Assembly: GCA_018334875.1 (NCBI GenBank)
Contig: JAGXLC010000009.1
Location: 1-35,695 of the forward strand
Direction of reading: 5' to 3'
Source of the DNA: Bacteroidales bacterium
GTDB taxonomy: Bacteria; Bacteroidota; Bacteroidia; Bacteroidales; UBA12077
DNA: 35,695 nt
Each line of letters begins with the position of its first letter. Position 1 is the stretch's first letter. Shown piece by piece: positions 5,414 to 31,450 of the stretch. The position numbers and the translations under genes were made by a program. Below the pieces are notes generated by a model, which was given only the letters and a program-made list of their open reading frames with translations, was not told the DNA's origin and did not search any database.

Positions 5414-5443
5414 CTAACCCGAATTATTCTTGAATAATTCTGA
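5414..5443. repeat. 30-base palindromic repeat, copy 1
   Basis: Thirty bases are identical to 29893-29922, in the same orientation. The core is a perfect palindrome, GAATTATTC-TT-GAATAATTC, with 9-base arms, preceded by CTAACCC. It begins 3 bases beyond the U-run of the eno terminator, in the direction of eno transcription. Its function is unknown. A dispersed REP-like element or a protein-binding site are both possible. Confidence 0.85.
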
Positions 5444-5445
5444 AT

Positions 5446-5478
5446 AAAAAATCCGCAGAAAATAAAATTCCTGCGGAT
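5446..5478 (-). terminator. Rho-independent terminator of eno
   Basis: Read on the minus strand, ATCCGCAG and CTGCGGAT form a perfect 8-base stem around a 12-base loop and are followed directly by TTTTT. It begins 31 bases after the eno stop codon, which fits a terminator for that gene. Confidence 0.85.
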
Positions 5479-29271: not shown

Positions 29272-29868
29272 TCAGTTCAACTTTCGGGCAATCAACTGAA
29301 TAACTTCAGCCTCTCCTTTGTGGTAGTATCCTTCATTGAGACCCCGCCGTTTTTCCTTATAATGAACCAATTCCAGTGATTTAAGATCTTCGGCTAACTC
29401 CTGGCCATTGTACAAAAGGGCTAGATTTTTCGGACCACCGGTATTGTAAAGGATCTGTTTACGACTAAAAGCCTCTATGAGAAAATACCCTCCAGGTCTA
29501 AGAAATTTAATCAGTTTGCGGTGCATTTGCTGCCTTGTTTCCGGGGGCAGATGAAGAAAAATCAGTGCCACTGCATCAAAATTCCGGTTTGTCTGAAAAT
29601 CCTCTATGGATGAAATATGATACTCAATGCGGACACCATATTCGGCTGCCAGTTGCATGGCTTTTGCTTTGGCTTTACTGCTAAAATCAAACGCAGTCAC
29701 ATTCCATTTCTTCAAGGCAGCATAAACTGCATTCCTTCCCTCACCTTCGGCAGGTAAAAGTAAATCCCCTGGTGGGGTATTGTCTATAAAATCTTTAAAT
29801 AAAGCATTTGGAGCTTTGCCATATACAAACTCCCTGGTATCATATCTTTCATCCCAAAACTCTTCCAT
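29272..29868 (-). CDS. Class I SAM-dependent methyltransferase
   Basis: The 198-residue protein has a Rossmann-type methyltransferase core. Motif I is LLLPAEGEGRNA (37-47), the acidic residue that binds the SAM ribose is probably D61 (VTAFDFS), and IEDF...FDAVALIFLHLPP is followed by LIKFLRPGGYFLIEAF. The start WDERYDTREFVYGKAPNALF resembles the TehB-like and thiopurine-methyltransferase-like small enzymes. The substrate is unknown. The ATG is only 24 bases from a 30-base palindromic repeat upstream, and no promoter is clear. Confidence 0.82.
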   Translation of the reverse strand: MEEFWDERYDTREFVYGKAPNALFKDFIDNTPPGDLLLPAEGEGRNAVYAALKKWNVTAFDFSSKAKAKAMQLAAEYGVRIEYHISSIEDFQTNRNFDAVALIFLHLPPETRQQMHRKLIKFLRPGGYFLIEAFSRKQILYNTGGPKNLALLYNGQELAEDLKSLELVHYKEKRRGLNEGYYHKGEAEVIQLIARKLN

Positions 29869-29892
29869 GAAAAATTCCCTGTTAATATTTGC

Positions 29893-29922
29893 CTAACCCG
29901 AATTATTCTTGAATAATTCTGA
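29893..29922. repeat. 30-base palindromic repeat, copy 2
   Basis: It is identical over 30 bases to 5414-5443 and in the same orientation. It starts 8 bases beyond the minus-strand T-run of the hydF terminator, the same relation that copy 1 has to the eno terminator, and lies 24 bases upstream of the methyltransferase start. Confidence 0.85.
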
Positions 29923-29930
29923 CGCTATTG

Positions 29931-29978
29931 AAAAACCTGGCTTTTTGCTTCAATAAATTTCGCAAAAAGCCGGTTTTT
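29931..29978 (-). terminator. Strong, possibly bidirectional terminator after hydF
   Basis: AAAAACCTGGCTTTTTGC and GCAAAAAGCCGGTTTTT form a stem of 17 base pairs with one bulged base and a 13-base loop. The arms end in A and T runs on both sides, so it can terminate in either direction. No plus-strand gene runs into it, so its natural use is probably for aspA-hydF. Confidence 0.75.
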
Positions 29979-29991
29979 CTAATGCGGGGTT

Positions 29992-30061
29992 GCCTGCATC
30001 CACCACACAAACCATCCCGCCTTCACAAACTTCACTCCATTCGTTTGTGAATGATGCAGGC
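29992..30061. repeat. Nested inverted repeat
   Basis: Outer arms GCCTGCATC (29992) and GATGCAGGC (30053) enclose inner arms TTCACAAAC (30022) and GTTTGTGAA (30043), all perfect 9-base matches. A second CACAAAC at 30006 can also pair with GTTTGTG, so two folds are possible. I cannot assign a function. Confidence 0.7.
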
Positions 30062-30217
30062 TAAAACGATCATTTTATGCTCTAATGTTAATACAATTTT
30101 CTCATAAAAACAAAATATTTAAAAACTTTTCCTGAGCTGGTAATTCGTAGTAAAGCCTGTACCTGCAAGCGGTAAAAAAAATTTCCTGAAAGGCTGCACC
30201 TTGCCGATTATAAAGGG

Positions 30218-31450
30218 TTACAGATAATCCAGAGCTTCGATCTCCCGGCTTACAAAAGGAGCTATAGCGCGGTGATAAATCCCCTGCACATAAGCAATAG
30301 CCATTCCATAATTGGTAACCGGCACCCCCGCTTCTATAGCCGGTTTTATTCTATTTATCAACTGCTTACGGGTAATCATACAACCGCCACATTGCACTAC
30401 CAAAGCATACTCCCGAATGTCTCTGGGTAAATCATTCAATCCGGATACTACCTCAAATTCCAGATTTTTACCGGTGAAATTGGTAATCCAGCGTGGAATT
30501 TTCACTCTTCCAATATCATCACAGGAAACATGGTGCGTACAGGATTCTAACAATAAAACCCGATCCCCCTCTTTTAACTCCGCTATTTTTGGTGTGCCCT
30601 TCAAATAATTCTCAAAATCTCCCTTGAAACGGGCAAGAACAATACTAAAGCTGGTCAAGGGAACATCATGCGGAACTGAAGAATCTGCCCTGGTAAACAT
30701 CTGGCTGTCGGTTATGGCCAATTTCGGCTTAATACCTGTACGTTTAAGAAACGCATCAACCTCCCGCTCCTTAAGGATTATACTGACTGCATCATTATCC
30801 AGAACATCCCGTATGGTCTGCACCTGAGGTAAAATTAATCGTCCGGCCGGGGCTTCTATATCAATGGGAGTAATTAGAAGCACAATATCTCCATAACTTA
30901 GCAAATCCCCTATAAGAGATGGGATTTTAAAAGCCGAGTCAGGGATGGTTTTCTTGATGGTTTGAATAATGACATCGGAATTATAACCATTTAAAATACT
31001 GTAATCCATCACCTCACAATTGTATTCTTCCCGGATTTGTTTTTTCAATCCGGGGTCTAAAGGTTCCAAATCCGACTTATTATGGACAATAAAAAAAGGC
31101 GTATAATTTTTATGGAATTCCTCAATTACTTTTTGCTCAAAATCACCAAAAAGGTTGTGGGTTATAACCAAAATTCCCAGATCAATTGTCTTAATGGATG
31201 AGCGGGTTTTGGATTTTCTCTTCTCACCCAATTCACCGGTATCATCAATACCTGCGGTATCAACAAGAACCACCGGTCCGAATCCCGTAATCTCAAATGA
31301 TTTCTTTACCGGATCGGTGGTGGTACCGGCATAATCAGAAACAATGGCAATATCCTGATTTGCGAGCTGATTGATCAATGAACTTTTGCCATTATTTCGT
31401 CTCCCATATATCCCAAGATGCGGCTTCGATTCTTTTCCTCTGGCCATCAT
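30218..31450 (-). CDS. hydF: [FeFe]-hydrogenase maturation GTPase HydF
   Basis: HydF is the scaffold on which the 2Fe subcluster of [FeFe]-hydrogenase is finished before transfer to the apo-enzyme. The 410 residues have an N-terminal GTPase domain (P-loop GRRNNGKSS from 16, DTAG 64-67, NKSD 124-127), a dimerisation domain, and a C-terminal cluster-binding domain with C304-T-H306 and C354-G-G-C357, the expected iron-sulfur ligands. Length is normal. It follows aspA by 45 bases and is probably co-transcribed. The partner radical enzymes HydE and HydG and the hydrogenase itself are not in the window. Confidence 0.96.
   Translation of the reverse strand: MMARGKESKPHLGIYGRRNNGKSSLINQLANQDIAIVSDYAGTTTDPVKKSFEITGFGPVVLVDTAGIDDTGELGEKRKSKTRSSIKTIDLGILVITHNLFGDFEQKVIEEFHKNYTPFFIVHNKSDLEPLDPGLKKQIREEYNCEVMDYSILNGYNSDVIIQTIKKTIPDSAFKIPSLIGDLLSYGDIVLLITPIDIEAPAGRLILPQVQTIRDVLDNDAVSIILKEREVDAFLKRTGIKPKLAITDSQMFTRADSSVPHDVPLTSFSIVLARFKGDFENYLKGTPKIAELKEGDRVLLLESCTHHVSCDDIGRVKIPRWITNFTGKNLEFEVVSGLNDLPRDIREYALVVQCGGCMITRKQLINRIKPAIEAGVPVTNYGMAIAYVQGIYHRAIAPFVSREIEALDYL

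Follow-up and report, generated by a model that had tools for sequence, protein, structure and literature searches.

What is the same 30-base sequence doing twice, without a single change, in one stretch of bacterial DNA? The stretch analysed here, hereafter the window, is the whole of a 35,695-nucleotide contig (C9) of a Bacteroidales bacterium, whose genome is assembled to 4.72 Mb in 533 contigs. Within it, 30 identical bases containing a 20-base palindrome stand in the same orientation at 5414-5443, beside eno, and at 29893-29922, near hydF. A preliminary description, made from the letters of the window alone, had supposed a dispersed element akin to repetitive extragenic palindromes (REPs) that prefers terminators. 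We propose that the two copies belong, very probably, to a family of miniature inverted-repeat transposable elements (MITEs) with ends of the IS1380 type of insertion sequence (IS), mobilised in trans by an IS1380 transposase, the copy beside eno being a solo end.

Occurrence and anatomy of the repeat

The positions and the identity of both window copies were confirmed. Chance is indeed a poor source for the match, as first claimed: allowing three mismatches or fewer, the 20-base palindrome has 2 sites in the window, against 0.01 expected. Counting copies across the genome had been suggested, and the exact palindrome has 41 sites there. With at most two mismatches we obtained 74 forward and 84 reverse matches, with 0 for the reversed control; as palindromes match themselves on either strand, many sites enter these two counts twice. 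A 15-base pattern, TARCCYGVATWATTC, which combines the end with some of its flank, has 187 matches in the genome, and the backward pattern has 0.

With all copies read in one orientation, a larger unit is usually seen to have the palindrome as its left end. The apparently intact element at 29893 has the following parts:

29893..29896, plus strand: 5' target duplication CTAA, the same as at 30061-30064
29897..30060, plus strand: complete 164-bp A+B element (putative MITE), left end CCCGAATTATTC, right end GATGCAGG, delimited by ends, flanks and family members
29900..29919, plus strand: hairpin 1, the palindrome GAATTATTC-TT-GAATAATTC, from sequence and fold
29930..29979, plus strand: hairpin 2 of module A, earlier taken as the hydF terminator, from the fold; present behind the palindrome in 54 of 69 tabulated left ends
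29992..30060, plus strand: module B, a second inverted repeat that includes the right end, from fold and family comparison
30061..30064, plus strand: 3' target duplication CTAA, the same as at 29893-29896

The stretch 29893-30064 therefore reads CTAA, CCCGAATTATTC...GATGCAGG, CTAA, and its first 30 bases are the shared repeat. Module A has the form CCC-GAATTATTC-(TT or AA)-GAATAATTC-TGACGCTATTGAAAAACC...GCGGGG; it is mostly followed by module B, a second long inverted repeat terminating in GAATAATGCAGG. As a single strand, 29897-30060 folds into a closed stem with two hairpins and then a second stem (z -7.46; opposite strand, -5.80). An Rfam scan of the window returned nothing at gathering scores. 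The unit has what is expected of a MITE: terminal inverted repeats, CCCGAATTATTC and CCTGCATTATTC, at its two ends, a short length (26-336 bp end to end), no transposase gene, and many copies (the 187 end matches).

Evidence for transposition

Ends were paired by sequence alone, with no duplication required, in loci fetched from the genome itself and deduplicated by context, which left 54 pairs. Identical 4-bp flanks border 40 of the 54, and 38 of those 40 fit YTAR (CTAA 17, TTAA 14, TTAG 6, CTAG 1), the others being ATAA and TTTA, one each; this is the target duplication of a MITE. Among flanks able to tell direction, 25 are direct and 2 inverted (binomial p 6e-6). One locus (L013) holds a nested insertion, at CTAG within a 26-bp palindrome.

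Empty sites, for which a search in relatives had been suggested, do exist. In G002, a sister genome of the same genus, an element lies between CAGCCTTTTAA and TTAAGTCTTTGAATCAT with TTAA on either side (L212); the same position in our genome is empty, CAGCCATTCAAGCCTTTGAATCAT, with a single copy of those four bases. An element of our genome (L057) is absent from G002, with a few differences at the joint, and a third comparison (our element in L130 against G002) was not clean. The two window sites have empty counterparts among the relatives G001-G004, described below. By these sequence comparisons, the repeat is a miniature transposon family that has spread through the genome of this bacterium.

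The same data bear on the element of REP type or of bacterial interspersed mosaic element (BIME) type, in which a REP-associated tyrosine transposase (RAYT, of the Y1 kind) would spread a hairpin with a fixed tetranucleotide, without target duplication. Our repeats do look the part, being short intergenic palindromes in high copy number with a YTAR tetranucleotide adjoining the hairpin, and the genome has three Y1_Tnp genes. However, the 4-bp direct duplications covary on both sides, and YTAR is unlike GTAG or CGTC, the tags of the two REP super-families (PMC3733652). The RAYT-type gene that was to be looked for did not emerge: no such palindrome lies by the three Y1_Tnp genes within the fetched sequence of up to 1.5 kb on each side, and the one that was scored reached 55.6 bits as IS200/IS605 (cut-off 55) and 21.2 as REP-associated transposase (cut-off 80). 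What survives of the REP-like element is a dispersed palindromic repeat; spread by RAYT is extremely improbable.

Probable assignment to IS1380

The ends together with 4-bp direct repeats point to a transposon of the DDE type, for which the IS1380 family is the best match. In locus L168 of a Deltaproteobacteria metagenome-assembled genome (MAG; G027), a gene that scores as IS1380 transposase (NF033539, E 1.7e-122; PF13701, E 6.5e-155) lies between ends CCCGGATTATTCACC and CCCGCATTATTCATC, which are separated by 1.65 kb. Seven IS1380 copies on named plasmids, picked from the best 40 of 3,677 records, have ends of the form CC...ATTCA and YTAR duplications (CTAA, TTAG, CTAG, CTAG, CTAA, CTAG, CTAG), a character that formed no part of their selection. 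Both traits looked for recur in our elements: ends like those of L168 and the plasmid copies, and a 4-bp YTAR target (the 38 of 40 above).

In the proposed mechanism, CCYGVATWATTC would be the end recognised by an IS1380-family DDE transposase supplied in trans; cleavage would fall directly outside CC, and integration of the element at a YTAR site would duplicate these four bases. The MITE family is, from its sequences, a mosaic, probably moved by IS1380; we infer the mobilisation in trans, together with the time and agent of the spread.

Several points weigh against this assignment. Fourteen of the 54 end pairs lack identical flanks; they were all scored as misses, and among them are some wrong or nested pairings, an element counted twice and flanks off by 1-2 bases. 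The flanks of L168, TTAA and CTAA, differ from each other. The plasmid yardstick is biased: matching 4-bp flanks earned 3 points in its score, for two of the copies (L191, L194) the pair used ranked second, and two of the seven copies are ISAzs3, at sites with equal 8 bases in opposite orientation. IS5 likewise duplicates YTAR, according to PMC10359306, so YTAR alone is non-diagnostic and the assignment rests on the ends rather than the target. At those ends, our module A copies have TT or AA where related ends carry AT. Finally, no intact IS1380 gene was found in our genome, whose fragmented assembly may be missing an intact repeated IS; the sole IS1380 trace is a broken gene on contig C30, the first piece of which contains two in-frame stops.

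Other candidate partners were considered. At the IS1380-like loci L093-L095, L097-L099, L102 and L103 of the taxonomic family, no such tips lie beside the genes except at L094, the C30 locus of our genome, where the tips near the broken gene are parts of separate elements. An IS4-type gene on C456, from searches with PF01609 and PF13546, was rejected, its flanks being without matching ends. A search of viral contigs found no relatives of the L168 transposase.

The copies at eno and hydF

In the preliminary description both copies lay just past minus-strand terminators. This holds for eno, where the terminator is a separate hairpin:

5414..5417, plus strand: YTAR-type flank CTAA of the solo copy; the bases after 5443 are ATAA and differ
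5418..5443, plus strand: 26-bp solo left end (CCC, hairpin 1, TGA) beside eno; the family match ends 3 bases past the palindrome
5451..5478, minus strand: eno terminator hairpin, outside the element and given for context only; a similar G002 hairpin lacks the palindrome

The element is missing at this site in 4 of 4 relatives (G001-G004). In G002 the terminator-like hairpin 3' of eno, ATCCGCAG...CTGCGGAT, is retained and the palindrome absent; in G001, G003 and G004 the sequence behind eno is different and again without the palindrome. Because GAATTAT follows immediately beyond the G002 hairpin, the right border of our eno copy is ambiguous. We conclude that this copy is a truncated left end, next to eno's own terminator by chance.

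The supposed hydF terminator is rejected: its hairpin is the element's own second hairpin, which recurs across the family. A terminator scan of 29800-30250, looking for a hairpin with a T-run at hydF, found none by its rule.

The element at 29893 lies 28 bp upstream of a methyltransferase-like gene (PF13649; 29272-29868, minus strand). Between hydF and this gene no element is present in G001, G003 or G004, the 3 of 3 relatives that keep the neighbour; G002 has no methyltransferase-like gene at hydF. Judged by eye, these genomes share a promoter-like, AT-rich stretch ahead of the methyltransferase, and our element is placed between that stretch and the start codon. From this arrangement it probably sits in the leader of the gene: with the start 28 bp away, a message begun in that stretch would include the hairpins of the element.

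Terminators and gene neighbourhood

Targeting of terminators finds no backing in the family at large. Of the 66 copies with enough flank for the count, 4, eno's included, have a terminator-like hairpin no more than 70 bp beyond the element; of 300 random intergenic points, 19 have one nearby. Copies were also classed by neighbouring genes with a simple gene caller, expectations being set by intergenic length over a background of 52 gaps: 26 of the 55 classed copies are tandem, 8 convergent and 21 divergent, where about 35, 9 and 11 are expected. Convergent pairs are thus not in excess, and we reject a preference for terminators; their link to the repeat is coincidence at eno and misreading at hydF. 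A lean toward divergent promoter regions is possible, given the crude gene caller and the 52-gap background.

These counts also bear on the thought that the palindrome, though it arose by transposition, is now a functional site close to gene ends or promoters, bound by a host protein or selected as an RNA structure. Its arms are perfect in 41 of 54 A-family copies, 0 of 69 copies lie within a called gene (14 of the 69 being too close to a contig end for classing), and the divergent excess, subject to the same crude gene caller, would suit promoters. A transposase-binding end, or template switching, would however lead one to expect perfect arms too, there is no excess at terminators or convergent pairs, and the element is absent at orthologous sites in relatives. 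We consider a selected function very improbable.

Variation within the family

In some copies (L010, L011, L015, L036) modules A and B are separated by a short palindromic insert, variable in length and built as CTTGCTCCGC(A)GAAGCTTCGCGAAGGCGAGCCT. Two loci of our genome, L124 1536-1864 and L126 1551-1886, hold a longer form, about 330 bp, flanked by TTAA and CTAA duplications; here an insert separates hairpin 1 from module A. A further repeat family, C, has the ends of the palindrome family and a different body, CCCGAATAATTC-AA-GAATTATTC-CTGTCTCCGACAGCG..., and several of its copies end prematurely right behind a small second hairpin. Its copies in our genome include:

L009 1895-1987
L139 1506-1636 and 9029-9189
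L133 1355-1492
L140 1414-1551

On C30 (L067, about 6312-6188, minus strand), an inverted repeat GTACCTTATCA...TTGATAAGGTAC lies immediately inside another left-end copy; it is perhaps a different miniature element, nested in the left end.

Spacer switching and proposed palindrome rewriting

The two bases between the palindrome arms vary. Across 54 A-family copies the spacer is AA in 23, TT in 18, AC in 8, TA in 3 and TC in 2, and 15 copies that share an identical 69-base body are still divided (TT 7, AA 8). TT becoming AA is the outcome of a spacer inversion. Of the 41 TT or AA copies, 29 have a readable right end; on their tree, whose support is weak (stars on 2 of 26 inner branches), at least 10 spacer changes are required, while 300 label shuffles average 9.6 and 212 of them reach 10 or fewer. 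Switching between TT and AA that does not follow the element tree suggests that palindromes are rewritten by template switching. After insertion, a switch of replication template would rewrite the palindrome so that the arms stay perfect and the spacer inverts, as the patterns among copies imply. Homogenised arms and inverted spacers produced by template switching have been described in yeast (PMC8604942).

Two observations on module B touch the same subject. Its TTACCA apex is inverted in 1 of 15 copies. At its foot, an internal base is complementary to base 1 of the target duplication in 23 of the 29 copies that have G/A and C/T at these positions (Fisher p 0.006), these 29 being drawn from 31 copies with identical duplications and the column being one of several inspected; the fourth base of the duplication has no link to the foot base (p 1.0). 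Such complementarity is expected if arms extend into the flank after insertion.

TT and AA could instead mark two old subfamilies, with no inversion in place. Family C is near-uniform (AA 13, TT 1), so flipping is unequal among families and not universal; nor did we find an orthologous copy with opposite spacer states among insertions shared by G002 and our genome, in 20 G002 stretches and four other G002 loci. Yet the copies of identical body are split almost evenly, and the 10 changes on the tree, weakly supported as it is, hardly differ from the shuffled 9.6. Two old subfamilies are rather unlikely, and we keep to rewriting by template switching.

Solo ends

Sixty left ends of our genome have enough sequence to be followed inwards, two of them being two readings of one 26-bp palindrome. 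The family match stops 2-5 bases past the palindrome in six (eno's copy, L121, L125, L135, L142, L145) and at 19 bases in one; two are changed internally, at 21 and 23, and reach the right end all the same, and the remainder extend further. Among the six ends of G002 that were followed, the match breaks off after 3-6 bases in three and after 1 in another. As a side observation, the left flanks of two G002 left ends (L083, L087) are alike over about 60 bases and resemble part of another repeat. Stops at the foot of hairpin 1 fit cutting at the mirror of the true end; they fit equally a nuclease cleavage at the hairpin foot followed by deletion.

A bolder reading is that the palindromic end, its own mirror image, is cut on both sides by the transposase and moves as a 26-bp micro-transposon, the palindromes being rewritten in place afterwards. 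This would account for solo copies, eno's among them, that break off 2-5 bases beyond the palindrome, for spacers that flip and for arms that grow into target DNA. L142 is a 29-bp unit with TTAA on either side, and L128, L129 and L084 of Lutibacter are 26-bp units (CCC-9-NN-9-GGG) with TTAA or CTAA on either side. Against it, most solo copies have no duplication on the right, full 26-bp palindromes elsewhere have identical flanks only in the Lutibacter copy, and flanks are inverted in L092 of Woeseia, L089 and our own L122. We regard this reading as decidedly unlikely; if it is true, these units would rank with the smallest mobile DNAs and would document template switching across the whole genome.

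Distribution in other genomes

The 26-base pattern of TAR plus the CCC palindrome has 39 matches in our genome, 3 in G002 and 0 in the 23 other genomes of the taxonomic family searched; the 15-base end has 2, 24, 1 and 0 in G001, G002, G003 and G004. Of 296 genomes sampled across the phylum, 3 contain a stricter 20-base end with ATGAA, which our genome lacks. In contigs of named genomes the CCC palindrome gave 11 stretches, 6 from the MAG Bacteroidales bacterium Tobar15.5-16.5m-G5; the other 5 are full 26-bp palindromes, CCCGAATTATTC-AT-GAATAATTCGGG, from Lutibacter, Woeseia, a Proteobacteria MAG and a Deltaproteobacteria MAG (2).

The Deltaproteobacteria MAG G027, the genome of L089, has 304 matches to the end pattern, and many of them lie about 100 bases from contig ends, as if the repeat breaks the assembly. 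Persicobacter plasmids carry pairs of such ends about 210-240 bp apart, with identical flanks in 2 of 4. In viral contigs the exact CCC palindrome was not found; with a looser tip, two CCCGCATTATTCATGAA ends were found to delimit 236 bp of an IMG/VR contig (L162, 805-1040), and CTAG stands on either side. In another viral contig found with this tip (L163), the neighbouring open reading frame scored as GrpE and not as a transposase. A phage search with the element gave matches only at E 3.

Comparison with known systems

What was supposed to be a terminator-linked palindrome becomes an insertion history, that of MITEs with IS1380-type ends multiplied in one uncultured Bacteroidales lineage. A MITE family is an ordinary kind of element, and this one is good material for studies of palindrome evolution: some 60 readable copies of one perfect palindrome would allow the rate of palindrome rewriting in a bacterium to be estimated. 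It also counsels caution, since hairpins inside MITEs can be misread as gene terminators.

Template switching at inverted repeats in yeast likewise involves short spacers, of 2-5 bp (PMC8604942); there the comparison is between strains at one locus, whereas here it is among dispersed copies with 9-bp arms in one bacterial genome. REP/RAYT systems are alike as small, high-copy palindromic repeats (PMC3733652), and differ from our elements in the latter's direct 4-bp duplications, lack of a GTAG or CGTC tag and lack of a linked RAYT.

MITEPye1 of Paracoccus yeei, with IS1182-type ends, and the Tn3-derived inverted-repeat miniature elements (TIMEs) are further parallels: according to PMC11578231 and PMC4133298, they too are short, non-autonomous and intergenic, with terminal inverted repeats, direct repeats and a foldable core. 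Ours are set apart by IS1380-type ends, more than 100 copies and several internal families that have only their ends in common. A limited search of partially accessible literature did not find an IS1380-derived MITE described, which is weak evidence of absence. IS1380 insertion sequences themselves, such as ISAzs3, share ends of the form CC..G..(T)ATTCA and 4-bp YTAR duplications, and in the IS1380 of L168 near-identical ends surround a transposase gene; our element is short, has no such gene, and its left end is a near-perfect palindrome with a TT or AA spacer.
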